From: Fervidobacterium changbaicum
GTDB lineage: Bacteria > Thermotogota > Thermotogae > Thermotogales > Fervidobacteriaceae
Direction of reading: 5' to 3'
Assembly: GCF_004117075.1 (NCBI RefSeq)
Contig: NZ_CP026721.1
Coordinates: 434,001-498,000, forward strand
DNA length: 64,000 nt
The translations under genes were made by a program, and so were the position numbers. The notes beneath the pieces were generated by a model that was given only the letters and a program-made list of their open reading frames with translations, was not told where the DNA came from and ran no database searches. Every line of letters begins with the position of its first letter. Within the stretch, counting starts at the first letter, position 1. Shown in pieces: positions 5,464-21,798 of this stretch.

Positions 5464-6801
5464 ATGCGTACTATTAGGGAGATGTCTCGTGAGGAACTTT
5501 TTAGGTTTGTTGAGGAGAACCAAGTTAGGTTCGTAAGGTTGCAGTTCACTGATATTAACGGGATGATGAAGAATGTAGAAATCCCTGCAGATGAGCTCGA
5601 AGGAGCTTTGAACGGTGGAATTATGTTCGATGGTTCATCCGTTGAGGGTTTTGCAAGGTTGCATGAATCGGATATGTACCTTAAGCCGGATTTGAGAACT
5701 GTTGCGATGCTTCCCTGGACTTTTGATGGACACAGAAGCGCACGAATAATTTGCGATGTTTATAGTGATCCAGAACATCCCTTCGAAGGTGACCCACGGT
5801 ACAGGTTGAAATTGGTTGAGGAAAAGGCACGAAAAATGGGATTTGTACCTTACGCAGGTCCGGAGGTTGAATTTTTCATACTTCCAAGGCAAAACAATCG
5901 GCCAGTTTTTGAATTTTTAGATAGTGGGAGTTATTTTGATTTACTTCCTGTGGATATAGCTGAGCATATAAGAACGGAAGTTTCAGTTCACCTTGAAGAA
6001 ATGGGATTAGATGTTGAAACCACACATCACGAAGTTGCACCGTCGCAACATGAGGTTGATTTCCGGTATGCTGAGCCAGTAATTGCTGCAGACAATGTTC
6101 AGACGGTAAAGCTTGTGATTAAAACGCTTGCTATAAAGAATAATCTTCACGCAACGTTTATGCCAAAACCTTTCTTTGGCGTTAATGGAAGTGGAATGCA
6201 TGTTCATATGAGTCTATTTACACTCGACGGTAGAAACGCCTTTTACGACGAAACCGCTCCGGATGGAATTTCTCAGATAATGAAATACTTTATCGGTGGA
6301 CTTATCGCACACGCACGTGAAATAACCGCAGTAACAAATCCAACCGTCAACAGCTACAAAAGGCTCGTTCCTGGTTACGAGGCACCGGTTAACATAGCAT
6401 GGAGCAAAGGCAACAGAACGGCATTAATTAGAATTCCCAAATCGAGAGGAAAAGCTACAAGAATCGAGTACAGATCACCAGATCCATCGTGTAATCCTTA
6501 CTTAGCATTTGCCGTAATCTTGGCAGCGGGATTAGATGGCATTGAGAATAAGATAGAACCACCTGCTGCTGTTGAGGAGAACATCTATCAGATGTCGGAG
6601 AGTGAGAAGCAAAAACGTGGAATTCATAGGTTACCATCGAACTTAAAGGAAGCTCTTATTGAAGCAGAGAATAGCAAACTTGTCAGAGAAGTTCTTGGCG
6701 AGCATGTTTGGGAAAAGTTCTCGAGATTGAAAGAAAGAGAGTGGTGGGAATATTCAGCAAGTGTCACTGATTGGGAGAGAAGGAAATACGAGAACATATG
6801 A
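5464..6801 (+). CDS. glnA: glutamine synthetase, type I
   Basis: This 445-residue enzyme condenses ammonium and glutamate to glutamine using ATP. Visible blocks are MFDGSSVEGF (substrate latch), GPEVEFF (metal), HEVAPSQHEVDFR, NGSGMHVHMS and the ammonium/glutamate-site block ending NRTALIRIP, with RIEYRSPDPSCNPY near the C terminus. The length and the absence of a recognisable adenylylation-site segment fit the GSI-alpha group, usually feedback-regulated rather than adenylylated. The ATG follows GGGGGG by six bases. The stop codon overlaps the start of the next gene (ATGA), so the radical SAM gene is co-transcribed. Confidence 0.97.
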   Translation: MRTIREMSREELFRFVEENQVRFVRLQFTDINGMMKNVEIPADELEGALNGGIMFDGSSVEGFARLHESDMYLKPDLRTVAMLPWTFDGHRSARIICDVYSDPEHPFEGDPRYRLKLVEEKARKMGFVPYAGPEVEFFILPRQNNRPVFEFLDSGSYFDLLPVDIAEHIRTEVSVHLEEMGLDVETTHHEVAPSQHEVDFRYAEPVIAADNVQTVKLVIKTLAIKNNLHATFMPKPFFGVNGSGMHVHMSLFTLDGRNAFYDETAPDGISQIMKYFIGGLIAHAREITAVTNPTVNSYKRLVPGYEAPVNIAWSKGNRTALIRIPKSRGKATRIEYRSPDPSCNPYLAFAVILAAGLDGIENKIEPPAAVEENIYQMSESEKQKRGIHRLPSNLKEALIEAENSKLVREVLGEHVWEKFSRLKEREWWEYSASVTDWERRKYENI

Positions 6802-8546
6802 AAAATTCTGAAACAGGGCTATTCCTTCCGACAACGGAAGAAGAAGTGAAAGCTCATGGTTTTAAAAGCCTAGATGTCATCTTAGTGACGGGTGATGCTT
6901 ACATAGACCACCCGTCTTTTGGTGCTGCTTTAATCGCAAGGTTGTTAGAAAGCAGAGGCTACAAAGTCGGTATAATTGCTCAGCCTGAGGGTCCTGAGGA
7001 TATAAAAAGACTCGGAAAACCAAATTTGTTTTTTGGAGTTACCTCAGGGAGCGTTGATTCTATGGTTGCGAATTACACAGCGTCACGTAAGAAGAGAAAA
7101 TCCGACGATTATACACCTGGTGGTATTAACAACAAGCGTCCAGATAGAGCTGTTATCCAATATGTTAATTGGATTAAGCAAGCGTTCAAAGACGTAAAGA
7201 TAGTTATTGGAGGTATAGAAGCAAGCCTTAGAAGATTCGCACATTATGATTGGTGGAGCGACAGAGTTAGAAAATCCATATTGCTTGATTCAAAAGCGGA
7301 TATATTGGTTTACGGAATGGGCGAAAGGGCCATTTTAGAAATAGCGCAAAGGACTGCTTCTGGAAAAGATCTCGACAATATACGTGGAACAGTCATTTGG
7401 AAAAGTTCTCTGAACGTTTTGGAATCAGAGGAAAATGGTTTGGGTAACGTTAATCTACGCATAATCAAACTTCCTTCATACGAGGAAGTGGTGAATGATA
7501 AAAGAAAGTACGCGGAAGCATACCGTTTGATGGTTGAAAACACAGAACCTTTTAAAAACGTAGTCCTCGTTCAAAAGCACGATACAAGATATGTTATCCA
7601 GTATCCTCCTGCTTGGCCTCTTACGCAAAGGGAGTTGGATGAGTTATATTTACTGCCATATACAAGAAGAGTCCATCCTTATTATCTTGCCAAAGGACCA
7701 GTAAAAGCTATCGAGACTGTAAGATTTTCCATTACTGCTGTTAGAGGATGCTTCGGAAATTGTGCATTCTGCGCAATAACAAATCACCAGTCAACGCACG
7801 TTGTTTCACGCTCAACGGAATCTATTCTTGAAGAAGCAAGGATTCTTACAAAGATGCCAGAATTTCGAGGAACCATAGTTGATGTCGGTGGTCCGACAGC
7901 GAACATGTTTGCGTTATCTTGTTCAGTTCGAAATACCAAGGGACAATGTCCTAAGAATTGTCTTACTCCAGACATTTGTAAGATGGCTTTAAGTAGCTCA
8001 TCGAAGAACGATGCCGCAGATGAATTCATTGAGCTTTTGAAGAAAGTCAAAAGTATTCCAGGTGTAAAGCATGTCTTCGTCGGTTCAGGCATAAGACACG
8101 ACCTGATTCTTGCTTCTTTGAATGCAGATTACATAATCTCATCACTGGTAGATTTCACCTCAGGACAACTTAAGTTGGCACCAGAACATGCACACCCAGA
8201 TGTCTTGAGAATCATGCGCAAACCACCTGTTGGATTGTTCTTGGAGTTTAAAAGACGATTTGAGGAAGCTGCAAGAAAAAAGGGCCAGAAAAAATACGTT
8301 ATCGGTTATTTCATCGTTGCTCACCCAGGAGAAGGTGAAAAAGAGAATAAATATCTTCGAGAGTTCATCAAGAAGAATCTTGGATATGTTCCGCAGCAGG
8401 TGCAGATATTCACACCTACACCGGGAACACTAAGCACTACGATATATTATACAGGTCTAGAACCGTTTACAGGCGACGAAGTTTACGTAGAGAAAAAAGA
8501 CAAGGTCAGAAATATCTTCAAAGAAAATATCGTTAATCTTCGATAA
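6798..8546 (+). CDS. YgiQ-family radical SAM protein (UPF0313)
   Basis: This 582-residue protein has an N-terminal B12-binding-like region (DVILVTGDAYIDHPSFG near residue 25) and a radical SAM core with the cluster-binding CFGNCAFC motif near residue 318. A cysteine-rich insertion follows (CPKNC, CKM). The family is widespread but its substrate is not established to my knowledge. I placed the start at the ATG overlapping the glnA stop. A TTG 27 bases upstream is also in frame but lies deep in glnA. The 3' end overlaps the convergent racemase gene by 14 bases. Confidence 0.93.
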   Translation: MKNSETGLFLPTTEEEVKAHGFKSLDVILVTGDAYIDHPSFGAALIARLLESRGYKVGIIAQPEGPEDIKRLGKPNLFFGVTSGSVDSMVANYTASRKKRKSDDYTPGGINNKRPDRAVIQYVNWIKQAFKDVKIVIGGIEASLRRFAHYDWWSDRVRKSILLDSKADILVYGMGERAILEIAQRTASGKDLDNIRGTVIWKSSLNVLESEENGLGNVNLRIIKLPSYEEVVNDKRKYAEAYRLMVENTEPFKNVVLVQKHDTRYVIQYPPAWPLTQRELDELYLLPYTRRVHPYYLAKGPVKAIETVRFSITAVRGCFGNCAFCAITNHQSTHVVSRSTESILEEARILTKMPEFRGTIVDVGGPTANMFALSCSVRNTKGQCPKNCLTPDICKMALSSSSKNDAADEFIELLKKVKSIPGVKHVFVGSGIRHDLILASLNADYIISSLVDFTSGQLKLAPEHAHPDVLRIMRKPPVGLFLEFKRRFEEAARKKGQKKYVIGYFIVAHPGEGEKENKYLREFIKKNLGYVPQQVQIFTPTPGTLSTTIYYTGLEPFTGDEVYVEKKDKVRNIFKENIVNLR

Positions 8547-9618
8547 AAACTTTCTCTACATATGGACTTGTGAACGCTCTAAGTGCACATCCATAACTCA
8601 TTCTGAATCTAACAATGTCTCCCGGCCTAAATTCCTTATCACTTTCCGTTGTATCTACAATGAGATGGTCGCTCGATGCGTGGAGCACTTTTAGGCCCTG
8701 TTCAAAAGGTATCAATCCATCTGGTTTCACGTCTTGTTCTCCTATTGCAAGTATGATTCTTTTTCTGAGGCCCCTGTCTTCGAACAGTGGCGTTCTTCCG
8801 AATGCGTCCTTCCCGATTTCTCCCACAGGAACGGATGGCTTGTAATCAACTTCCACCACTTCTGCCTCTAATATCACTGTATCTTGCCTCAGATAAGGGA
8901 TATCTCTGTCTCCGGTGGCGTCGGTCCCAAGTATGATGCCTTCTCCAACTCTAAACTGGTTAATCCCATCTGGCAAGGTATTATCTTCCAACATTTTCAA
9001 AGTAACCGTGCTTCCACCACTTACAATGAGTTCATACCCCAAACGTGATTCGAGTGTCTTCTTGATTTCAACAAGTAACCCCATGTTTTCTTTCGTTGGT
9101 AATACACCACCGTAACAACCTAAGTTAGTTCCTATTCCCCTTAAAATCGCATGTTTCAAATTCCCAACAGTCGAGAGGATTTCTTCGACAGCGTTTTCAA
9201 ACCAAACACCTTCTCGTAAATCTCCAACATCTATCATATAAATGATATTCACGTTCTTATCTAATTCTTTTGCACACCTGTCAATTTCAAGCGCGACTTG
9301 AGGCATGGAAACAAGAAATTCGTCAACCAGACGGATCGCTTTCGGGATTTCGGAAAGCATAGGGATTCTCAGCAACTGAAAAGGTCCAGGAATACCGGCG
9401 TGGTATAGATTTTCTATATTCTTCAAACGAGATTCTCCAATTTTGTCAACTCCAGCAGCTCTCATTGACTTTGCAATCAGTGGATTGCCTAAGGACAGTT
9501 TTGTTACTCCGACTAGTTCGATCCCTTTTGAATGACAGATTTCAACAACTCTTGAAGCGTTCTGCCTTATCGCAGATAAATTTATTATCATACGCGGATA
9601 TATACGTTCTGGCTTCAT
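8533..9618 (-). CDS. PLP-dependent amino-acid racemase, Orr/alanine racemase-like
   Basis: This 361-residue protein has a fold-type III barrel like the N-terminal domain of alanine racemase. The PLP lysine lies in LVGVTKLSLGNP (about K40), and RGIGTNLGCYGG and IVSGGSTVTLKML mark the phosphate-binding side. The family includes ornithine racemase and the lysine racemase that supplies D-lysine to Thermotoga peptidoglycan. A role in D-amino-acid supply for the wall is therefore plausible, but the exact substrate cannot be read here. GGAGGAAGC precedes the ATG. It is transcribed alone, divergent from punA. Confidence 0.88.
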   Translation of the reverse strand: MKPERIYPRMIINLSAIRQNASRVVEICHSKGIELVGVTKLSLGNPLIAKSMRAAGVDKIGESRLKNIENLYHAGIPGPFQLLRIPMLSEIPKAIRLVDEFLVSMPQVALEIDRCAKELDKNVNIIYMIDVGDLREGVWFENAVEEILSTVGNLKHAILRGIGTNLGCYGGVLPTKENMGLLVEIKKTLESRLGYELIVSGGSTVTLKMLEDNTLPDGINQFRVGEGIILGTDATGDRDIPYLRQDTVILEAEVVEVDYKPSVPVGEIGKDAFGRTPLFEDRGLRKRIILAIGEQDVKPDGLIPFEQGLKVLHASSDHLIVDTTESDKEFRPGDIVRFRMSYGCALRAFTSPYVEKVFIED

Positions 9619-9676
9619 AAGCTTCCTCCTTCCGTTTTTTTCATACCTTTAAACTTTCCAATTTTTCAAGAAACTA

Positions 9677-9685
9677 TGGTATAAT
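9677..9685 (+). promoter_or_regulatory. extended -10 promoter of punA
   Basis: TGGTATAAT is an extended -10 box with a perfect hexamer. The -35 region is poor (TTTCCA, 19 bases away). It would give a leader of about 110 bases before punA. The leader contains short complementary segments (TAGTGA and TCACTA, CACGAAC and GTTCTTGTG) that could fold, but it matches no riboswitch I know. Confidence 0.6.
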
Positions 9686-9802
9686 ACATTGAAGCGGAAC
9701 TTAGTGACACGAACTTTCTTCACTATCGCGTTCTTGTGATTCTACAGCACAATTTTAAGCTAAGAATGAAATTATGCAAAGTACTTTTTGGGAGGGATTT
9801 TC

Positions 9803-10606
9803 GTGGATAAGCGAGTCAGAGAAGCATATGAGTACATAGCTTCAAAAATTTCTTTAAAACCAAAGATAGCACTTATACTTGGGTCCGGTTTAGGTTTCTT
9901 AGCAAATGAAGTGAAAAACGCCCAACATATTAGCTACAAGGATATTCCGCATTTTCCATACTCCACTGCCCCTGGTCATGAAGGAAAATTGGTCTTTGGG
10001 GAGCTTTTTGGAAAAGAGGTTGTTGTTTTAAGTGGAAGGTTTCATATATACGAGGGTTGGAATCCCACTGATATAAAACTTGTCATTCACACATTGAAGC
10101 TTCTTGGAATTGAACGCATGCTTGTCACAAATGCAGCGGGTGCGATAAACACAAGTTACACTCCGGGAGACATAGTCATGGTTAAAGACGTTATCAACCT
10201 TATGTTTAGAAATCCACTCAGAGGACCAAACGATGAAGATATAGGTCCAAGATTTCCAGATATGTTAGGTGCTTTTGACAGAGATTGGATGGAGAAAGTG
10301 AAGGAAGTTTTCCCGGAAATGAAAGAAGGTGTTTATATTGCAGTAACAGGTCCTACGTACGAAACTCCCGCTGAAATAAAGGCTTTTAGAAAATTAGGAG
10401 CGGACTTGGTAGGTATGTCAACGGTACCGGAATTGATTGTCTGTGCACATAGTGGGATAAAAGCCTTGGTGTTTTCTTGTGCAACAAATATGGCGGCTGG
10501 AGTACTTGAACAGCCTTTATCACACGAAGAGGTCGTTGAAGTTGCTAACAAGGTTAAAGAAAAGTTTATTGAAGTAGTTAGAAAGGCTTTGGAGGTGCTG
10601 GAATGA
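9803..10606 (+). CDS. punA: purine nucleoside phosphorylase
   Basis: This 267-residue enzyme cleaves purine nucleosides with phosphate, in salvage. Family blocks are ILGSGLGFLANEV (phosphate-binding loop), PGHEGKLVFG, LSGRFHIYEGW, VTNAAGAIN, GPTYETPAEI and the base-binding CATNMAAG region. It belongs to the trimeric type. The GTG start was chosen because GGGAGG ends seven bases upstream. The TTG fifteen bases earlier overlaps that site. Its stop overlaps the next start as ATGA, coupling it to the DHH phosphoesterase. Confidence 0.95.
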   Translation: MDKRVREAYEYIASKISLKPKIALILGSGLGFLANEVKNAQHISYKDIPHFPYSTAPGHEGKLVFGELFGKEVVVLSGRFHIYEGWNPTDIKLVIHTLKLLGIERMLVTNAAGAINTSYTPGDIVMVKDVINLMFRNPLRGPNDEDIGPRFPDMLGAFDRDWMEKVKEVFPEMKEGVYIAVTGPTYETPAEIKAFRKLGADLVGMSTVPELIVCAHSGIKALVFSCATNMAAGVLEQPLSHEEVVEVANKVKEKFIEVVRKALEVLE

Positions 10607-11601
10607 ATCGTGATTTTCTCTCGATAGTAGGAGAGCTAAGTCTAGCTAAGAAAATATTGGTTGTTGGACATATTATGCCTGATGGTGATGACATAAGTTC
10701 TGTCCTAAGTGCTGCACTGGGACTGAGAAGATTGGGAAAAGAAGTAATGTCTGGTATAGACTGGAGGATCCCATGGTATTTCTACGAGTTCGAAGAAACG
10801 AACCTCATAAAAAGTTACGATGAGATTATCCAAACCGGCTTTCAACCAGACTTTGTCCTCGTACTCGATGCATCGAGTCCTGATAGAATAGGACGATTTC
10901 AGGAGTTTCTCAAGAAGATTAACTCTGCGGTGGTTGACCACCATGGTACCAATACACTCTTTGGTACGCTTAACTGGGTTGATACGAAATTCGGCTCCAC
11001 AGCCCAGATGGTTCTCAGGCTCAATACAGAACTTGGTGTGCCGTACGATGGAAGGCTTGCAACTATTAATTTAATGGGGATAGCTACTGACACGGGCTTT
11101 TTCAGGTATTCGAATGCTGACGAAATTGTTTTTTCGGACGCTACAAAACTAGTTTCTATGGGTGGGAAATCGTATTTGGTTTCAAGGATTTTTGAAAACA
11201 AGAGAATAGAGCAATTCAAGTTACTTTCAACAATGGTTGAACACATTCAGACAGAAAACAACGGACAAATCGTTTATTCTTACCTCTCTAAGAAGGATTA
11301 CGAGTCAAATAACTGTACAGAAGACGATAGCGGTGGTTTTGTTGGTGAACTGCGTTCAATACAGGGTGTAGAGCTTGCAATCTTCCTTTCTGAATACGAA
11401 CACAATGAAGTGCACATAAGCTTTAGGTCAAAAGATTGGTTTGACTGTAGCAAATTAGCAGTTTTACTGGGTGGTGGAGGACATCCACGAGCTGCAGGTT
11501 GTACACTAAAAGGAGAATTACCAGTTATAATAGAAGAAGTAATTAGGGAAGCTAAGATCATGTATGATGCCCAACTGAAGGCGTTAGAAGGTGTTCACTA
11601 A
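10603..11601 (+). CDS. nrnA: DHH/DHHA1 phosphoesterase (NrnA-like)
   Basis: This 332-residue phosphoesterase probably degrades nanoRNA, pAp or linear cyclic-dinucleotide products such as pGpG. The DHH domain has GHIMPDGDD (residues 22-30), VLDASS and VVDHHGTN near 108-115. The DHHA1 domain ends with GGGGHPRAAGC. These are the metal- and nucleotide-binding motifs of the family. It is coupled to punA. Its position directly before two GGDEF proteins would suit a role in clearing c-di-GMP breakdown products, but that link is inference. Confidence 0.9.
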   Translation: MNRDFLSIVGELSLAKKILVVGHIMPDGDDISSVLSAALGLRRLGKEVMSGIDWRIPWYFYEFEETNLIKSYDEIIQTGFQPDFVLVLDASSPDRIGRFQEFLKKINSAVVDHHGTNTLFGTLNWVDTKFGSTAQMVLRLNTELGVPYDGRLATINLMGIATDTGFFRYSNADEIVFSDATKLVSMGGKSYLVSRIFENKRIEQFKLLSTMVEHIQTENNGQIVYSYLSKKDYESNNCTEDDSGGFVGELRSIQGVELAIFLSEYEHNEVHISFRSKDWFDCSKLAVLLGGGGHPRAAGCTLKGELPVIIEEVIREAKIMYDAQLKALEGVH

Positions 11602-11679
11602 TTCGTTAAGTCTTTATTCAGCATTTTTTGTTTTCCGCGCACCAAGTTTGAGAAAGAATTTTGGCTGGGGGGGTTTTTC

Positions 11680-14600
11680 ACGTCATTATCAGGACGAGAG
11701 ACTTTTCTAAAGCGCTTTATAGGTACTGAGCAAGTTATCGAAAAAGATGAGGGAAGATTCCTAGAGTGGACTTCTGATCGGAACATTGTCGAGGATTTCC
11801 GAGAGTTCGTTGTACATATAAATAGTTTTGCATTTTCTAAACGGTTCATTCTTCCCGCTATGATTTTACCTTCCGAGGCCGAAATATCGGTACTCTTCAG
11901 ATATTCAGGAGAGAAACATATCGCAGAATGTATCAATGAAGAAATAAGACTACGAGAGCTTACAGATGAAGAGCGTGAAAAGCTTATCGAGGCAATTCTA
12001 AGGATTGCCAGGTTTGTTTTACTTGGTAACATTCCTCCTTTTCCAGCCTTTAGCGTCTTTGATGTGTTTACATTTGCTGGTGAATTCTTTTTCAAACCAC
12101 CTGTGCTTTTTAAATACGATTTCTACAAAACACTTTATCATGATGTGTTGAGCCGTGAAAACAGCGAAATAGGTAAGTACATATTTATCGACAAGGAATA
12201 TCTCAAGAAAGGTCAATATGATAAATACTCAACATTACGCATTTTAGCAAATTTTATTGAGATTTTCGATATCGCCAATAAATATGCAACTATAATTTCA
12301 AGAATGCGAGATGGAACTATTAGAGTCGATGAATTGGAGAAAGATAGACTGGATGAGAAAGTTTTATTTGCTTTAGTTTCAGAAATTGAGCAACGATGTG
12401 ATTCGAGTGCACAGGAGGGAAAAAAGTATTTGGAGATACTTGTCGATACAAGTAGTTATTATCGTTTATTCAAAGACTACGTAGCCAGAATTGACCGGTA
12501 CCTTGCAGATCGTGGAAGGACTCTACTTTACATCGGCGATGATTTTACAAACATTGCACGACAAATCTTATGGAAAAACCGTGAGAAGTTCTCAACTGTG
12601 GAGTTTTCAGAACTTATTAAATGTCTGTATATAAGCTGTAAATTCGACACGATAATCACTGAACTTTTAAAGATTTTTAGAACGCTAAGTCCTTTGGTAG
12701 TTGTGGTTAAAGATACTGTGGAGCCTCACTACCTGATACGACGATTCTTAGAAATCTTAAAGCATTCTGAAATAAAGACTGTTGTTTTAGCGTTCAAATC
12801 AATCAATCCCGACATGGTGGTCAGTGTACCAACTGCAAATATTACATTACCCGTCTTGCCTTTTGAAGAATTAAAGACGAAGCTTTCGGAGCTTAAAGAC
12901 GGAGAGGTGCTAATAAGGGCTCTCGGATTAGAATTTTCAAGAGATGATGTGTTACTCTTCAGCAGGGTTACGGGTAAGGATGGAGAAAGTATTTTGAAAA
13001 ACTTAATGAAAGAAAAAATAGTTCGTTCCGACGATGGTGAATACGTTGTTAACATCGATCCTAAGCTAGGTGACCTGTTATTAGGTGATGAAAAAAGGGA
13101 AACAAGCAACGAGTTAAAACAGCTGCACGAAGCAATGGCACAGGAATACAGAAAAATGATAAGTCCCTATAGTCATTCCTCTTTCAAGGCAGCTTGGCAC
13201 TATCTTTTGGCAGGTAAAGAAATCGCAGCTATTGTGGAATATTTGAGATTTGTTCGAAATGCTATGGATAGATATACTTTTTCACCTTCAGTACTTTCCG
13301 ATATATTGCAAAGAGCGTATTCAGTTCTTGAAAAAAATGGCAGAACTGATTCTTATGCATTCCATAGGATTAAACTGGAGCTTGAGTACCGCATAGGCGT
13401 ACGGTTAAATTTCACGAAGGCAAACTTACCAGACAAAATAATTTACGATTACTTAAGAGTACTTGATATCTTTCTTGAAGAAAGATACCATGATTGTATT
13501 GAATACGCAGAAAAGATTCTCAAACACCAAAATCTAACAAAGTACAAATTTTTAAAACTTGCTTTAATCAAAGAGAGGGCACACGTTAACTATTACGATA
13601 AACTCTCAGACAAGGTAATAAGTGTCGAAGAAATCCAAAAACTGCCTATCTTGAACACAAAGTGGGCTGAATTAAAGGCAGAGTGGTTGTGGCAAATAGG
13701 AAACGCTCTAAGTCACACTAATCCTGAAAAGTCAATAAATTACCTGAGGGAAGCCTTGGAAATTTCCAGAGAATACGATTTGAAACATCTTCTTGTGAGA
13801 ATCCTTAACTCTTTTGGGATATCGTACGACGGTTATTTACTTTCGATTGTTTATTTCAAGGAAGCAATTAGAATCGCCGGAGAGATTGGCTACGTACACT
13901 ACAATTTATCTCCAAGGATGAACTTGGCTCGTGAACTTTTGTATTTCGGAAGGTTTGGAGAATTACTTAACGAACTCAAGTCGATGGAAGACCTTTCAAT
14001 TGGATATAGGTCACCTTCTAATACGGCTTTTTTGTATAGACTGTACGGTATGTTTCATTCATATTTGCGCCATTATGAAAAAGGTTGGGAGTACATTAAT
14101 AAAGCCCTTTTGGTAGAAAAGGAAAATGACTTACCGCACTCTTCTCTTAGGGCTATGATTCTTCACGAAATGCTTTGCGGAAAGAAAGAGAATGCTAGGG
14201 AATTGATAGAAAAATATCGGGATGATCCTGCAATCCATACACGAGCGTTTGAATACCTTGTGCGTATGATTATTGCCAGAGACGATGAAGAATTCTTTAG
14301 AGCTTGGTCAGAGTATGTAAGCTCTCCATACACACTTCTAAGGGAAGAGATACTTTACTTGTTCACTGACCAAATTTTCAGAGTTGATAAAGGTAAGTTA
14401 GAGGAGGAATTAAATAAATGGGATAGTTTTTACACTTCAGAGATGACAAAGCTTTCGCTCCTGTATGTGTTGTTGGCAAAATTAAGATATTACGAGTTGA
14501 TCCGCAATGAATTAAAATATAATATGACAAAGTTGCGATTGATGAAACTCATAAAACAGTTAGGAATAGAGGATGATTTTAGAGAATTTTTGGACGAAGA

Positions 14601-15498
14601 TTTAGAACCACAGGTGGACAATATACTTACAGGTTACGAGATAATTGAAACGTTGGAGATTCTAAGATCTTTGGATCAGAGAGTCAATTTGGATGAGTTT
14701 CTAAGGATTTTCTCAAATATTATCATCAGTATCTTCCGAACACAATCTGTTTTCATTTCAGTGACTGATAAAAGAGTTAATCTTTCATCAACTATTGGCT
14801 TCTTACCACAAAACAAACAGACAAATATTGTTAAACTTGATCCGCTTGAGGTTGGCATTTCTGGTAGTATAGACGAATACAGCGAATACATAATTTATTT
14901 AGCGGGTAATTTTTCTATTAAAAAAGAATCAGAAGTTGAAGAATTTTGGAACAAATTGACGTTGTTGGATGAACTCTTTTCAAATCAACTCAAAGGAATA
15001 ATATATAGAGAAAGAGCAATGAGAGATTCTCTAACAGGGCTGTACAATAGATGGAGGTTTACCCAGATCTTAAAAGAATACTTGGAAGAACCACAAGTTA
15101 AACTCAAGCAGAAAGAAATCAGTGTGTTCATGGCTGACATAGATGACTTTAAGAAGATCAACGACAATTACGGTCATATGAAAGGAGACGAAGTATTGAG
15201 AAATGTTGCAAAGATTTTACAAGAAGAGGTGGAAGGTTTTGGAATTGTAGCTAGATACGGTGGAGAGGAATTTGTTGGGGTGTTGGAAGCGGAAAAGAAC
15301 AAGTGTTTGGAGGTTTGCGAAAATATCCGGCGCAGGTTGGAAATGGCTTCCGAAAGTATCTTTGGTTTTAGGGTTACTCTCAGCTTTGGTATTTCTTCCT
15401 CTCTGGAAAGGTCAACCATTACCGAAATCTTGGGTCTTGCCGATCAGAGATTGTACAAAGCCAAGGAAATGGGAAAGAACAGAGTTTGCATCGAATGA
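11680..15498 (+). CDS. giant signalling protein: degenerate kinase/NTPase, TPR-like helices, GGDEF (paralogue 1)
   Basis: This 1272-residue protein aligns along its length with the next gene. The N-terminal 180 residues match the neighbour's kinase-like domain (IFIDKEYLKKG against IFIAPEFYKGE) but lack kinase motifs. The NTPase region has lost its P-loop (LLYIGDDFTNIAR where the neighbour has a Walker A). A long helical, TPR-like region follows. The C-terminal diguanylate cyclase domain has ADIDDFKKINDNYGH and GGEEF at residues 1194-1198, but no RxxD inhibitory site upstream of it. Homology continues upstream of the first ATG (11860), with no stop back to 11601. A GGGGGGG site ends six bases before ACG at 11680, the start proposed here. 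If ACG is not used, the product starts at 11860. Confidence 0.8.
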   Translation, partial: TSLSGRETFLKRFIGTEQVIEKDEGRFLEWTSDRNIVEDFREFVVHINSFAFSKRFILPAMILPSEAEISVLFRYSGEKHIAECINEEIRLRELTDEEREKLIEAILRIARFVLLGNIPPFPAFSVFDVFTFAGEFFFKPPVLFKYDFYKTLYHDVLSRENSEIGKYIFIDKEYLKKGQYDKYSTLRILANFIEIFDIANKYATIISRMRDGTIRVDELEKDRLDEKVLFALVSEIEQRCDSSAQEGKKYLEILVDTSSYYRLFKDYVARIDRYLADRGRTLLYIGDDFTNIARQILWKNREKFSTVEFSELIKCLYISCKFDTIITELLKIFRTLSPLVVVVKDTVEPHYLIRRFLEILKHSEIKTVVLAFKSINPDMVVSVPTANITLPVLPFEELKTKLSELKDGEVLIRALGLEFSRDDVLLFSRVTGKDGESILKNLMKEKIVRSDDGEYVVNIDPKLGDLLLGDEKRETSNELKQLHEAMAQEYRKMISPYSHSSFKAAWHYLLAGKEIAAIVEYLRFVRNAMDRYTFSPSVLSDILQRAYSVLEKNGRTDSYAFHRIKLELEYRIGVRLNFTKANLPDKIIYDYLRVLDIFLEERYHDCIEYAEKILKHQNLTKYKFLKLALIKERAHVNYYDKLSDKVISVEEIQKLPILNTKWAELKAEWLWQIGNALSHTNPEKSINYLREALEISREYDLKHLLVRILNSFGISYDGYLLSIVYFKEAIRIAGEIGYVHYNLSPRMNLARELLYFGRFGELLNELKSMEDLSIGYRSPSNTAFLYRLYGMFHSYLRHYEKGWEYINKALLVEKENDLPHSSLRAMILHEMLCGKKENARELIEKYRDDPAIHTRAFEYLVRMIIARDDEEFFRAWSEYVSSPYTLLREEILYLFTDQIFRVDKGKLEEELNKWDSFYTSEMTKLSLLYVLLAKLRYYELIRNELKYNMTKLRLMKLIKQLGIEDDFREFLDEDLEPQVDNILTGYEIIETLEILRSLDQRVNLDEFLRIFSNIIISIFRTQSVFISVTDKRVNLSSTIGFLPQNKQTNIVKLDPLEVGISGSIDEYSEYIIYLAGNFSIKKESEVEEFWNKLTLLDELFSNQLKGIIYRERAMRDSLTGLYNRWRFTQILKEYLEEPQVKLKQKEISVFMADIDDFKKINDNYGHMKGDEVLRNVAKILQEEVEGFGIVARYGGEEFVGVLEAEKNKCLEVCENIRRRLEMASESIFGFRVTLSFGISSSLERSTITEILGLADQRLYKAKEMGKNRVCIE

Positions 15499-15541
15499 AA
15501 AACAAATTAAAACTCTATGCCTACAGGAGGCGTAAAGTACT

Positions 15542-18500
15542 GTGGAGATATTGGAATATCTAGGGGATACGTACTGGAGTAGTGATTACCTTGTTGAAAT
15601 AAACGGATACAAAAAAATTGCCAAATTTGTCGATAAGAAATTGATTCACAATCGAGCTGAGGTCATTTTACGTTCAGATTTGGCGCGAAGTATCAGTGGA
15701 ATTTTGGTTCCAGAAGATTTTTACTTTGAGGAGCGTGAGAGAGATATTTTCGTGTACGATATATCATCTTACAAAACAATTAATCAGATTACTCAAGAAC
15801 ACCTTCAGATAATTGTTCCGCAGTTATTCTCTATTTTAAAAACAGTTTTGCATATTCCAAAGCTTTACATCCCATACATTGGCTTGGATGATATTATAGT
15901 AGCGGATGACGAAGTGAGAATCTTTCTTCCTTTGATACAGTCTTTAGAAAGTGTACACCAGATGAGCGAAAGGTGGAAAATTTTCATAGCTCCAGAATTT
16001 TACAAGGGTGAGAGCTCAGACAAATCAACGATCTATGTTTTTGGAAAATTGATTTACGAATTAATCAACAACTCTGAAGTTAAAAAAGTAGTTGAACCAA
16101 TGATAGTAGAAGACGTATCCAAAAGAGAATTCACCGAGGAAATTCCCTTCCACAACGTTCTACCTTCAAAAAAGATACTGACTGTAAGAAGGATAGTGAG
16201 AGATGAGGAAAAGGAACTAATAGATTTTATTAGTAATCCTGGAAAAAAGGAAAACTTCATAGGTGTGATAGGTCCTCAGAGAGTTGGTAAAACAACCACA
16301 ATAGAAAATCTCCAAAACTACTTCAGGCAAAGTGGGATACCTTTTCTCCATGTTATGAATGCTTCAGATTTGATTGCTCAGACGTTGCAAATCTCGTCGG
16401 AACGTATACCTGATAGTCTACTGACACGTCTAACTTATTGTTTAGAGAATGTTTGTTCGATCGACACAATCAGCGTAGATGTGGTAGAGGCGTTGAGCTA
16501 TCTGGATAAAGTTATTATTTTTGTTGATGATTACCACGAAGCCTCTGAGTTATTAAGAGCGTTCCTAAGAAGAATTGCAACATTAGAAACTTCAGGGAAG
16601 ATAAAAATTTTGGCATTTTCAGTAGAAGATTCGGAGGATTTTGAAGTAAGATTTGAACTCAAACCGTTCACCAAGGATATGATAAGAAGACTTTTGAATG
16701 AGTCTTTCTCAAAGGTGGAAAATGAAGATATCCTTGTTGATTGGCTGTACGGAGCCAGTGGAGGACTACCAGGATTGATTGTGGAAAATTTAAGATATCT
16801 CTATGAAAATGAAATATTAACAAAAGTTCAAGACCAATTTGTGTGCGATGTAGAAAGGTTGGTGGAACTTAACATCGAAACTGCGTTCGTTGATCGAATA
16901 CGTAAGTACGAACATGCATCGACAAAGTACCTTGCGATACTGGGACAAAAATTTACACTGGATGAAGTAAAGCATTTGGAAGAATTCTTAGGTATCGAAA
17001 TAAGCTTACAGGAACTCTTTGAAGATGGCATACTTTACAGGGAATACAGCAAGATACGTTTCACGCTGAGACATTACTGGCAAATTATGCACGAAGCTAT
17101 TCCCGTGGATGAAAGATTGGAGCTACACAAGAGGTTAGCTGCAATAACCAATGACTTTGAAAAGAAGGCTTGGCATTTAGAATTGTCAGGAAACAAAATA
17201 TCAGCAGCTGTAGCTTATCTTAAGTATGCCAACGAAATGCTTAATTATTATGCTTCTCCTTCTGTGATACACAGCATTTTACAAAAAGCCAAAAGGTTGA
17301 TTAATTCACGAGAATCATACGCTTTTCTCAAGCTAACATTGGAATTATTCGAAAGAACAGAAGACAAAACTTATGCAGAGGACATTGAGATTCCGGATAA
17401 GAATATATACACTTATCTGAAAGCACGCTACTATTATCTTTTGTACGATTACGATCAAGCAATAGAGATTTTGAAGAACTCAAAAATTGACCTTGGTCCA
17501 TTTGGTAATTTGAGGCGGGAGTTTCTCTTAATGTCATCCGAAGTAGCGCAATCTTCTAAAAGAAACGAATACTATGAAAGAGTAAAACAGATACTTGAAA
17601 ATCTTGATGAAACAAATCCCGTGCACGTGAGGTTGATTGTTGATATTTACATCTTCATATCTTTTATAGCGCGCTCCAGTTCTTCGAGAGTTATTGAATA
17701 CCTTAGAAAGGCTGAGAAACTCGCACTGGACTACAATATTGCTCACAAGCTTCCGTCAATTTACAATAATCTTGCACTCGGTGTTACGAATACAACGATT
17801 TCGATGGAGTACCTACAGAGGGCTGTAGAAGTCGCAGAAAGAATAGGACTGCCTGCCCGAAGTTACTTGGCAAGGTTAAATATGCTCTCGCATGCCCTTT
17901 ACGCTGGCAGAATAAAGGATTTCCTAGTTGGTATGGCGGAACTCATGCCAAAACTTGAAATGTTAGGGCTTAGGGATGAAATCATATTTGCTAATACAAT
18001 TGAGGCCTTCTATCATTCATATAACTTTGAATTGGAAAATGCACTCGAACACCTCGAATCTGTTGGAAAGCGTTTTGGTGTTGATATGTCTGCGGAAGTT
18101 TTGTCGGTGTACTTTCTGTCAAGAAATCTTGACAAGGCAAAAGAGCTTATACCGAAGGTTTTAGAAAGTGAGCAATTTGGAGAGGATACCAAAGAGATTG
18201 TAAGAGTTATATCTTCCTTGGAAAGTGGTGAATTCCCAGAAAAATGGAAACGCTACAGGGATTCTGGCGGAAAGTATTTCAGGGAAGAGATGGCAGCAGT
18301 TCTTGGCGAAGAACTTGCCAAGAGTGTTCCAGATGCTTTTAAGGAAGAACTTGAGTACTTAGAAACCAATTATGTGCTTGACGGTTCTTTATTGTCCCTT
18401 GCTATGGTCTACGAAGGATATGGTCATTACTATAAGGTTCTTGGAAATGAGTACAAATCCAGATCTTATTACTCAAAAGCACTAACATTGTATAAAGACA

Positions 18501-19492
18501 TCGGCATGGAAAACGCGGCTAAATCGTTAAGCAAAATTTACAACATTGAATCTGAAGAGTCTGAGAAGAGGGTTTCTTCAAAGCAATTAATTGCACTCTC
18601 TTATGATTTGCTTTCAAGCTTAAAAGCCATAGACCCAAAAACAGAACCAGAAAGACTTCTAAATTTCTTCTCAGCAAAGATATTATCAGTTATACCTGCA
18701 AGAACTATTTTACTTAAAGTGTACGATAGCGTTTTAGATAAGGCTTTTGAAACAGCCATAGGTGTTTCTGAAGGGGAAAAACCATCAAAGGAAACCTTTA
18801 GTACAATTCCCTTGGAAATTTATCTTATTGATAACGTTGATCAAAGTGCATCATACGAACTTTGGTTGTCAAATCCAAAAGCAAGATTTTCAGAAGACTA
18901 TAAGAAAGAGCTCTTGCCAATTCTTCAACTGCTCGAATACAGCTTCATTGCTGTTATGAAAGGAACGTTAACATGGCTGAGAAGCTTGATCGATCCGCTT
19001 ACCAAACTGTACACAAGATACCATTTCAGTGAGTTGCTTGAGCATCACTTTAACAAGGCAGTTTCCGAGAACGGAGAACTATGTGTTGTTATGTGCGACA
19101 TCGACAATTTTAAGAATATAAATGATACGTACGGGCATCTCACTGGTGACGAAGTATTGAAAGAGGTTGCAAGAATATTACGCGATAACGTCCGTTCAAC
19201 CGATGTTGTTGCCCGATTCGGTGGAGAGGAATTTGTACTCTTGTTCCCTTCGACTGGTAGAGAAGAAGCGCTTATAGTTGTGGAAAGATTGAGAAGGTTA
19301 ACAAGGGATATAACTAAATTCCCGTTCAAAATCACGCTGAGTTACGGGGTAGCCGTTTATCCACTCTGTAAGGTTAACAATCCAGAGGAATTAATTCAAA
19401 AGGCCGACGTAGCCTTGTACCACGCAAAGAATACCGGTAAGGACAAAATCGTTTTGTATTCGGAGGGAATGACGGGTGGATTGCATGCGTAA
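15542..19492 (+). CDS. giant signalling protein: pseudokinase, P-loop NTPase, TPR-like helices, GGDEF (paralogue 2)
   Basis: This 1316-residue protein starts with a kinase-like domain. APE occurs at residues 150-152, followed by the subdomain-IX-like IYVFGKLIYELI. The HRD and DFG positions are replaced (LYIPYIGLDDIIV, IFLPLI), so it is probably a pseudokinase. A STAND/AAA-type NTPase follows, with Walker A GPQRVGKTT at 244-252 and Walker B KVIIFVDDY. Long TPR-like helical repeats lead to a linker of possible GAF type and a GGDEF domain. That domain has CDIDNFKNINDTYGH, GGEEF at 1227-1231 and an intact RSTD inhibitory site five residues before it. Predicted output is c-di-GMP. The start is GTG with AGGAGG eleven bases upstream. 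Confidence 0.88.
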   Translation: MEILEYLGDTYWSSDYLVEINGYKKIAKFVDKKLIHNRAEVILRSDLARSISGILVPEDFYFEERERDIFVYDISSYKTINQITQEHLQIIVPQLFSILKTVLHIPKLYIPYIGLDDIIVADDEVRIFLPLIQSLESVHQMSERWKIFIAPEFYKGESSDKSTIYVFGKLIYELINNSEVKKVVEPMIVEDVSKREFTEEIPFHNVLPSKKILTVRRIVRDEEKELIDFISNPGKKENFIGVIGPQRVGKTTTIENLQNYFRQSGIPFLHVMNASDLIAQTLQISSERIPDSLLTRLTYCLENVCSIDTISVDVVEALSYLDKVIIFVDDYHEASELLRAFLRRIATLETSGKIKILAFSVEDSEDFEVRFELKPFTKDMIRRLLNESFSKVENEDILVDWLYGASGGLPGLIVENLRYLYENEILTKVQDQFVCDVERLVELNIETAFVDRIRKYEHASTKYLAILGQKFTLDEVKHLEEFLGIEISLQELFEDGILYREYSKIRFTLRHYWQIMHEAIPVDERLELHKRLAAITNDFEKKAWHLELSGNKISAAVAYLKYANEMLNYYASPSVIHSILQKAKRLINSRESYAFLKLTLELFERTEDKTYAEDIEIPDKNIYTYLKARYYYLLYDYDQAIEILKNSKIDLGPFGNLRREFLLMSSEVAQSSKRNEYYERVKQILENLDETNPVHVRLIVDIYIFISFIARSSSSRVIEYLRKAEKLALDYNIAHKLPSIYNNLALGVTNTTISMEYLQRAVEVAERIGLPARSYLARLNMLSHALYAGRIKDFLVGMAELMPKLEMLGLRDEIIFANTIEAFYHSYNFELENALEHLESVGKRFGVDMSAEVLSVYFLSRNLDKAKELIPKVLESEQFGEDTKEIVRVISSLESGEFPEKWKRYRDSGGKYFREEMAAVLGEELAKSVPDAFKEELEYLETNYVLDGSLLSLAMVYEGYGHYYKVLGNEYKSRSYYSKALTLYKDIGMENAAKSLSKIYNIESEESEKRVSSKQLIALSYDLLSSLKAIDPKTEPERLLNFFSAKILSVIPARTILLKVYDSVLDKAFETAIGVSEGEKPSKETFSTIPLEIYLIDNVDQSASYELWLSNPKARFSEDYKKELLPILQLLEYSFIAVMKGTLTWLRSLIDPLTKLYTRYHFSELLEHHFNKAVSENGELCVVMCDIDNFKNINDTYGHLTGDEVLKEVARILRDNVRSTDVVARFGGEEFVLLFPSTGREEALIVVERLRRLTRDITKFPFKITLSYGVAVYPLCKVNNPEELIQKADVALYHAKNTGKDKIVLYSEGMTGGLHA

Positions 19493-20414
19493 AGGTGACG
19501 AAAAACAAATTCGAGGTTTTAAAAAGAGGATGATAGAGAAGCTTTGGGATTTAGGTTGCGACCTGTTTTTCAATGAAAACCTTTCTCATCACGTTAGTTT
19601 TAGACTCGGTGGAATTGTTCCACTATTTGTAATTCCAAACTCGACAGAAGGATTCTTAGGAGCAATAAAGCTCCTCAAAGAATGCGAAATTCCATTTAGA
19701 GTTGTTGGTAAAGGTACGAATATAATCCCAACCGATGATGAAAAGGATTTTGCCGTTATTTCTACAGAAAGGATAGATTTTGTTGAAGTTCGTGATGAGT
19801 TTGTAAACGTATCTGCTGGAATGTCGTTCAAGAGTTTGTGTTTATTTGCGCTTGAGCATTCGCTTTCAGGTTTGGAAAACGCCTTTGGGTTGCCAGGTAG
19901 TGTCGGCGGGGCAATTTACATGAATGCAGGTTGTTATGGTTGGGAAATGGCACAGAATGTTGTGAGTATCCAAGCATTTGACGGAAGTAGAGTTGTTACT
20001 ATAAATTCATCGGAAGCAAGATTTGGTTACAGAGACAGTATATTTAAGCACGAAAGATCGCTTATAATAATTTCGGCTGTCCTAAAGTTATCCAAGGGGG
20101 ACAGAGAGAAAATACACAATCTTATGCTTGATACAATGAAGAAGAGATACGAAAAGCAACCATTAGAGTATCCAAGCGCAGGTAGTGTTTTTAAAAGACC
20201 AAGACCGGACTTCTATGTTGGTACGGCTATTGAATCGTTAGGATTAAAAGGTTATCAAATTGGTGGGGCTCAAGTTTCTGAAAAGCACGCAGGATTTATA
20301 ATTAATAAAGGGAACGCAACTGCTTCCGATGTTCTAAAGTTGATTGAGTTTATCAAAGGCAAAGTCAAGGAGCACTATGGCGTTGATTTGGAAACGGAAG
20401 TTGAAATCTGGTAG
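19485..20414 (+). CDS. murB: UDP-N-acetylenolpyruvoylglucosamine reductase
   Basis: This FAD enzyme of cytosolic peptidoglycan precursor synthesis reduces UDP-GlcNAc-enolpyruvate to UDP-MurNAc. It has 309 residues, with HHVSFRLGG, GKGTNII (FAD loop), the GLPGSVGGAIYMNAGCYG core, FGYRDSIFK and the catalytic-serine block SAGSVFKRP. The short length without the extra YRxSxF-loop domain fits the type II enzymes. I chose the ATG that overlaps the end of the GGDEF gene by eight bases. An in-frame TTG nine bases earlier is possible. Confidence 0.95.
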   Translation: MRKGDEKQIRGFKKRMIEKLWDLGCDLFFNENLSHHVSFRLGGIVPLFVIPNSTEGFLGAIKLLKECEIPFRVVGKGTNIIPTDDEKDFAVISTERIDFVEVRDEFVNVSAGMSFKSLCLFALEHSLSGLENAFGLPGSVGGAIYMNAGCYGWEMAQNVVSIQAFDGSRVVTINSSEARFGYRDSIFKHERSLIIISAVLKLSKGDREKIHNLMLDTMKKRYEKQPLEYPSAGSVFKRPRPDFYVGTAIESLGLKGYQIGGAQVSEKHAGFIINKGNATASDVLKLIEFIKGKVKEHYGVDLETEVEIW

Positions 20415-20454
20415 CAAGCGTTTTACATATAGGATGAGTGGAGGTGCCTGAGAA

Positions 20455-21798
20455 ATGGGGATGAACGAGCTGGTCTGGAAAAAACGAACAAGAGAAGAGG
20501 TCGAACATTTTTCCGCTAAGTACAAAGAGTTTATCGAGTATGCGAAAACAGAAAGATTAGCCATTGAGTATTTTGAAAGAGTGCTTTTGGATAATGGTTA
20601 CATCCCGCTAGAAAAGTATACAGGTAAAGAAGAGAAATTGTTCTACGTAAACCGGGGCAAATCATTGGTTGCGATTAATGGAAAGATTTTGAACGGTATC
20701 AATTTTGTTGCTGCACATGTTGATGCTCCAAGGATTGACTTAAAACCAAATCCATTGTATGAAGACTCTGGAATCGCTCTAGCAAAAACGCACTATTATG
20801 GTGGCGTGAAAAAATATCAATGGTTAAGTCTACCTCTGGCACTTGTAGGCGTTGTTGTAAAAGAAAACGGTGAAAAGATAAATGTCTGCATAGGTTGTAA
20901 TGAAAATGATCCTGTGTTGGTCCTTCCCGACCTACTTCCACATTTGGACAAAGAAGACAAAAAAGTAAGCGAACAATTTAAAGCAGAAAGGATGAATGTG
21001 GTACTTGGTTCAATTCCACTTGAAGGTGAAGAAAAAGAGCCTGTTAAGAAATATATCCTGAATCTCTTAAAAGAAAAATACAGTATTGAGGAAGAAGATT
21101 TCGTAAGTGCAGATTTGGAGCTTGTTCCAGCTTTGAAACCAAGAGATGTAGGAATTGACGGTAGCTTCATCGGAGCGTATGGTCATGATGATAGAATATG
21201 TGCATTCGAAGGTGTTATGGCGTTATTACATGCGCAACCAAAGAATAGAGCTATCGGTGTTATATTGTTCGATAGGGAAGAAATCGGTAGCGAAGGAGAT
21301 GCAGGGGCCCAAGCAAGATTTTACAGGGCGTTCTTGAGAAAAATACTCTCAGTTGACGGATTCAGCGACACTGAGAGAATGCTCGATGAAATTATAGATA
21401 AATCAACCGTTCTTTCAGCTGACGTGACTGCCCTTTTTGATCCATCTTACCCGGATGTCCATGACAAACAGAACGTGGCTAAGGCAGGATACGGTGTCGC
21501 TTTGGTAAAATATACCGGTAGGGGAGGAAAAAGTGGGGCAAGCGAAGCTCACGCTGAGTTGGTAGGTAAGGTTAGAGGCATTCTTAATAAGAACGGGATA
21601 TCATGGCAAGTAAGCCTGCTGGGCAAGGTTGATGTTGGAGGCGGAGGAACGGTAGCAAAATTCCTTGCAAAGGAAGGATTTGATACAATTGATATTGGAC
21701 CAGGGTTAATGAGTATGCATGCACCATTCGAACTTGTTTCAAAAGCTGACCTTTACGAGACCTACCTTGCATTCAAAGTTCTTATCGAAGAACTATAA
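20455..21798 (+). CDS. M18-family aminopeptidase
   Basis: This is a 447-residue cytosolic zinc aminopeptidase. Metal and catalytic positions are visible as AAHVDAPRIDL (His and Asp), FDREEIGSEGDAG (the Glu pair), SADVTALFDPSYPD and the late HAPFELVSK. M18 enzymes form dodecameric tetrahedra and trim acidic or hydrophobic residues from peptides. GGAGGTG precedes the ATG. It lies between murB and a MarR regulator with short gaps, suggesting one transcript. Confidence 0.94.
   Translation: MGMNELVWKKRTREEVEHFSAKYKEFIEYAKTERLAIEYFERVLLDNGYIPLEKYTGKEEKLFYVNRGKSLVAINGKILNGINFVAAHVDAPRIDLKPNPLYEDSGIALAKTHYYGGVKKYQWLSLPLALVGVVVKENGEKINVCIGCNENDPVLVLPDLLPHLDKEDKKVSEQFKAERMNVVLGSIPLEGEEKEPVKKYILNLLKEKYSIEEEDFVSADLELVPALKPRDVGIDGSFIGAYGHDDRICAFEGVMALLHAQPKNRAIGVILFDREEIGSEGDAGAQARFYRAFLRKILSVDGFSDTERMLDEIIDKSTVLSADVTALFDPSYPDVHDKQNVAKAGYGVALVKYTGRGGKSGASEAHAELVGKVRGILNKNGISWQVSLLGKVDVGGGGTVAKFLAKEGFDTIDIGPGLMSMHAPFELVSKADLYETYLAFKVLIEEL

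Follow-up and report, generated by a model that had tools for sequence, protein, structure and literature searches.

Here we describe two large genes that lie head to tail on the forward strand of a 64,000-nucleotide stretch of the Fervidobacterium changbaicum genome (contig NZ_CP026721.1, positions 434,001 to 498,000), hereafter the window, within which all coordinates are given. The genes, paralogue 1 (P1) and paralogue 2 (P2), each carry a GGDEF domain at the C-terminal end, with a match far above the Pfam cut-off, and are best explained as an old tandem pair of putative large STAND-type diguanylate cyclases. They differ in a nucleoside triphosphate (NTP)-binding motif and in the inhibitory site (I-site) for cyclic di-GMP (c-di-GMP), and P1 lacks a standard start codon at its N-terminus. 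The features compared are as follows.

11680..15498, + strand: P1, with a kinase-like region, an NTPase-like region without Walker A, a repeat region, a region at the GAF position and a GGDEF domain
12442..12480, + strand: VDTSSYYRLFKDY, the P1 stretch at the place of the P-loop (profile-profile alignment, MAFFT)
12532..12561, + strand: IGDDFTNIAR, a conserved P1 motif that is not the P-loop equivalent
15232..15243, + strand: EGFG, at the I-site of P1
15259..15273, + strand: GGEEF of P1
15542..19492, + strand: P2, 1316 amino acids, with a P1-like layout plus Walker A, Walker B and RxxD, and a GTG start after GGAGG
16271..16297, + strand: GPQRVGKTT, Walker A of P2
19193..19204, + strand: RSTD, the I-site of P2
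19220..19234, + strand: GGEEF of P2

A conserved motif split between two paralogues

The P1 reading frame is open from 11602 to 15498. P1 and P2 share 28% identity over 817 columns (BLASTP), and a profile comparison pairs them over their length (hhalign probability 100, 1203 columns, 22% identity). Of the two hallmarks of a STAND NTPase, P2 has both Walker A and Walker B, while P1 lacks Walker A. The match of P2 to Pfam AAA_16 is weak and becomes stronger in its relatives, 16 and 17 of 29 P2-type sequences matching ATPase_2 or AAA_16 (E 0.01).

The pattern GxxxxGK[ST] occurs nowhere in P1, where the stretch matching GVIGPQRVGKTT of P2 at Walker A reads ILVDTSSYYRLFKDY. An earlier sequence-only reading of this DNA was right that the P-loop had been lost, but the peptide it quoted as the equivalent, IGDDFTNIAR, lies ∼30 residues too far downstream; in BLASTP, MAFFT and profile-profile alignments this peptide either pairs with VMNASDLIAQ of P2 or the P-loop falls elsewhere. 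It belongs instead to a P1 consensus, GxDFTNVxRQLL, with an N that is invariant in 11 sequences and makes it a hallmark of P1. In the profile-profile alignment P1 has nothing to match ∼70 residues of the P2 NTPase, among them the GLPG segment. The first acidic residue of Walker B is retained in 7 of 11 P1 sequences. Losing Walker A is predicted to deprive P1 of an NTP switch in its NTPase domain; P1 may still be gated in other ways, as it retains the kinase-like, repeat and GAF-position regions.

The motifs EGFG in P1 and RSTD in P2 each stand five residues before GGEEF, and the alignment bears out the proposal that one has taken the place of the other. It equally upholds the claim that GGEEF and the first metal aspartate (D-I-D) are intact in both proteins, and P1 also retains the FKxxND and GD residues. 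Both are probably diguanylate cyclases, to judge from these signatures, and the natural prediction is that P2 would be gated and feedback-inhibited and P1 neither. That split was put forward in the sequence-only reading: the motif asymmetry is real and conserved, and the behaviour of each protein is what it would predict.

Among 61 genomes searched, 20 of them from the family, P1 adjoins P2 in 11: nine of the window's genus (G000 to G008) and two of a second family genus (G009 and G013). Every P1-bearing genome has P2 alongside, and in the remaining nine family genomes the P2-type gene alone was found at full length. Contig ends cut P1 and P2 of G005 and P2 of G009, the tail of the G005 P1 being read on another contig. 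Walker A is present in none of the 11 P1 orthologues, compared with GxxxxGK in 36/36 P2-type rows (30 plus 6 of family f3), and residues G244, G249, K250, T252 and D329 are invariant in 29/29 P2-type sequences. RxxD is likewise missing from all 11 P1 sequences (ten by alignment; the eleventh, cut at its contig end, was read separately) and present in 33 of 34 readable P2-type rows, the exception being RxxxD in G019, with two more rows cut. GGEEF is found in 11/11 P1 orthologues and the DxD metal aspartate in 10/10 readable ones, as it is in the readable P2-type rows. None of the 11 P1 loci, each of which was checked for it, has a first gene with both Walker A and RxxD; the split is conserved across orthologous loci and hence is not a local accident, and it is this conservation, 11/11 for each motif, that makes the asymmetry more than chance. 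Since 8 of 20 GGDEF matches in this genome lack RxxD, the lack of this motif carries information only because it is conserved among P1 sequences. As a separate observation, two GGDEF matches within one genome (G000:C1:23672-24139 and 2246529-2246996; L086 and L087) have identical scores and motif stretches, both reading YADEF instead of GGDEF, and are perhaps a recent duplication.

P1 is under purifying selection and is not decaying. The ratio of nonsynonymous to synonymous substitution rates (dN/dS) for the whole of P1 is 0.26 in the G008/G004 pair and 0.18 in the G001/G005 pair, against 0.13 and 0.10 for P2. It is 0.17 for the P1 GGDEF domain in the one measurable pair (no ratio for this domain was obtainable from G001/G005), and 0.18 and 0.17, in two pairs, for the first 60 codons after the proposed start. 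For G009/G013, in which synonymous divergence is saturated, a ratio was obtained for the NTPase-like segment only (0.15). No inner stop interrupts P1 in any of the 11 loci.

In a tree of 45 rows, which excludes two sequences (L038 and L058) that are within the motif counts, P1 forms, with either of two models, one clade outside all family P2 (support 98-99). The approximately unbiased (AU) test under LG+G4 rejects a duplication within the two genera (p 0.0037). In every one of the 11 genomes P1 has a tip branch that exceeds the P2 one, by a factor of 1.4 to 4.4. Against an old origin, a long branch may have pulled P1 outward, and the test was under LG+G4 only. Either P1 is older than the divergence of the family, three genera having since lost it, or its long branch has drawn it outward. 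A scan of the genomic contigs with P1 returned a single match, to an unrelated GGDEF.

The N-terminal region, as seen in P2 (15542-16190), has an APE motif that is invariant in 29/29 sequences and is without clear catalytic motifs. Its profile gave no significant match (best E 0.045), and 47 of the 49 chains listed are named kinases. A single-sequence fold of this region was useless (mean predicted local distance difference test score 29.5). The weak profile matches make a kinase-like fold a likely candidate, and the region is a possible pseudokinase.

The start of P1

The sequence-only reading had P1 begin at 11680. The codon there is ACG, so the claim fails as a standard start, but as the actual start it is apparently right. 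Two features define the proposed start.

11667..11673, + strand: run of seven G, proposed as the Shine-Dalgarno (SD) site for P1 and separated from the ACG by six bases
11680..11682, + strand: ACG, the proposed start codon of P1

The P1 frame contains no ATG, GTG or TTG between 11602 and 11859, its first ATG standing at 11860. Counting from 11680, the profile-profile alignment shows homology with the P2 N-terminus from residue 7 onward, so translation should start near that position. In 7 of the 11 P1 loci (G000, G004, G006, G007, G008, G009 and G013), an in-frame ACG stands six bases downstream of GGGGGG or GGGCGG, and the spacer between them differs in all seven. The ACG of G004, G008 and G009 is preceded at 6 or 7 codons by an in-frame stop, while the next canonical codon among the seven loci is 7 to 60 codons downstream, at a position that is not conserved. 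The absence of a canonical codon at a conserved N-terminus, the SD spacing and conservation, which together characterise a non-canonical start, are thus found in 7/11 loci.

The predicted duplex of the P1 SD site with the 16S tail has an energy of -10.5 kcal/mol, the median over 42 genes of the window being -9.95, and the window gene at 5464 has the identical GGGGGG-N6 layout, but with ATG. When open frames were screened as a control for an SD-led ACG preceding the first canonical start by 14 codons or more, 1 of 54 in the window qualified, P1 itself, and 0 of 357 in 400 kb of this genome. Taken alone, the pattern GGGSGG-N6-ACG turns up between 0 and 11 times in each of the 20 family genomes, and the position and frame of the ACG are therefore decisive. 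No conserved RNA structure was found at the P1 start in four folded leaders (z-scores -0.23, -0.23, 0.28 and 0.69). Taken together, these data make it likely that P1 begins at a rare, weak ACG codon.

Gene neighbourhood

Three neighbours of the pair, all above cut-offs or closely matched and conserved in synteny, are listed below.

9788..10606, + strand: purine-nucleoside phosphorylase, inosine and guanosine type (above NCBIfam cut-offs; synteny)
10603..11601, + strand: DHH/DHHA1 phosphodiesterase, a close relative of Thermotoga maritima TM1595 (PDB 5o1u, E 5e-108; synteny)
19476..20414, + strand: murB, the conserved downstream neighbour (above NCBIfam cut-offs; synteny)

The order purine-nucleoside phosphorylase-DHH-(P1)-P2-murB is kept in the inspected family loci as far as these extend, only DHH, P1 and P2 being visible in the G009 stretch. 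In the four P1 loci inspected besides the window, P1 lies between DHH and P2. In loci without P1 (five of the nine single-copy family genomes, two of family f2 and one of family f3) the DHH gene directly precedes the P2-type gene, an arrangement that thus extends even to other families of the order. A reasonable reading of this gene order is a putative operon for c-di-GMP synthesis and dinucleotide recycling. The likeness of the DHH gene to TM1595 concerns a neighbour and not a member of the pair. In one report c-di-GMP was measured in F. islandicum AW-1 during growth on feathers (PMC13157175). Promoter-like and terminator-like sites across 9600-20600 showed no excess over shuffled sequence. 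Further upstream, 8533-9618 on the - strand matches ornithine racemase Orr strongly yet below the cut-off (386 of 480 bits).

Interpretation of the asymmetric pair

We suggest, with an even chance of being right, that P1 is a second cyclase placed beyond shut-off by c-di-GMP, restrained by its own domains or by P2 and, in addition, by a synthesis that the ACG codon rations. P2 would keep the ancestral design of a nucleotide-binding NTPase module, a repeat region and a GGDEF domain that RxxD makes inhibitable, and P1 would have lost from it the nucleotide switch (Walker A and ∼70 NTPase residues) and the inhibitory site with its GGDEF signature intact. We infer that the P1 GGDEF domain makes c-di-GMP, a product that would be unable to switch P1 off, and that restraint would come from the repeat and GAF-position regions of P1 or through contact with P2. 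The weak conserved ACG may throttle P1 relative to P2; it is a candidate limit because a cyclase without nucleotide or product brakes needs another one. A bolder form of this proposal, tentative and rather doubtful, is that P1 is sub-stoichiometric, a natural conserved ACG start rationing a cyclase without feedback site or nucleotide switch against the gated, feedback-inhibited P2, with start-codon strength, and through it the initiation factor IF3, thereby joining the c-di-GMP circuit.

Several observations weigh against the proposal of a feedback-free cyclase with an ACG start. Among clean domains with a GG[DE]E signature in this genome, 4 of 12, P1 included, lack RxxD, and we reject the idea that its loss is special in itself. 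The P1 genes of G001, G003 and G005 have a TTG 11 bases after a G5 run, the start layout of G002 is ambiguous, and the ACG of G013 has canonical codons nearby, 13 before it and 7 after. Finally, no natural bacterial ACG start was found in a literature search by narrow phrases that took in only a minority of subscription journals.

The sequence-only reading suggested from the asymmetry a regulator and catalyst pair. In such a pair P1 would be the regulator, its GGDEF domain binding GTP or c-di-GMP without turnover, and P2 the catalyst. The loss of two control features and the faster evolution seen in the tip branches would suit such a role; however, P1 keeps GGEEF, the metal aspartate, FKxxND and GD, and the I-site, which P1 has lost, is what one would expect a sensor to retain. 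Because GGEEF is kept in 11/11 loci and the GGDEF domain has a dN/dS of 0.17, P1 and P2 both look catalytic; the regulator and catalyst pair is not supported, and we consider it improbable. The same reading also raised a heteromer. In the version considered here, the switch driven by NTP would come from P2, and P1 would add a catalytic half-site that has no I-site, giving a mixed dimer that resists feedback. GGDEF domains act as dimers, and the pair is adjacent and co-retained in all 11 genomes with a common layout across the 1203 aligned profile columns. The diguanylate cyclase tDGC of T. maritima is reported to form dimers (PMC4215984). Tandem paralogues often act apart, however, and a heteromer, for which adjacency and co-retention are the evidence, is possible but in our view unlikely.

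The start of P1 could alternatively lie at a canonical codon downstream (11860), or translation could enter from upstream by frameshift or readthrough, the ACG being a chance threonine codon. In its favour, the ATG at 11860 is the first standard start, and in this genome the P1 frame is that of the DHH gene past its stop. Homology with P2 and purifying selection nevertheless span the 60 codons before 11860, the next canonical codon varies in position among the seven ACG loci, and these loci have no canonical codon in another frame in common. The gene preceding P1 in G007 terminates in a different frame, and readthrough or frameshift is rejected as a common explanation. We regard a downstream or upstream entry as quite unlikely. 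That P1 is a decaying duplicate, a local accident, is scarcely credible: two motifs and part of a domain have been lost and the branches are longer, but the losses are identical in 11/11 loci, and the intact frames throughout, with dN/dS of 0.26 and 0.18, lead us to reject it.

The proposal that P1 is a cyclase beyond c-di-GMP shut-off can be set against known systems. T. maritima tDGC (PDB 4urg, 4urs, 4urq) and PleD resemble the pair in a GGDEF domain with an active site, and P2 also in RxxD, but are without the STAND, repeat and kinase-like parts found in P1 and P2. In tDGC the single RxxD mutation R158A is reported to abolish product inhibition (PMC4215984); there RxxD was removed artificially, whereas P1 is without it naturally. 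STAND NTPases (Pfam ATPase_2, AAA_16, AAA_22, nSTAND) are matched by P2 and its relatives, which keep Walker A; the differences are the GGDEF effector and, in P1, the missing Walker A and ∼70 residues. In having no canonical codon at a conserved N-terminus, P1 is like infC, Streptomyces sigR (GTC) and Staphylococcus aureus cvfC1 and ccpN, a likeness that extends to a strong SD site and conservation in relatives, but its putative codon is ACG and not ATT, ATA, ATC or GTC. The GTC start of sigR holds its product below that of its operon partner (PMC5472188), and S. aureus has non-canonical starts that are conserved and carry extended SD sites (PMC13009471).

If these proposals are true, gene finders that accept only ATG, GTG and TTG would, in the seven ACG loci, trim between 7 and 60 codons from the P1 N-terminus. 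ACG would become one of the few start codons that bacteria use naturally, here conserved across two genera and at a site where ATG is one mutation away. The family would also offer a natural pair with and without a nucleotide switch and product inhibition, open to direct biochemistry.

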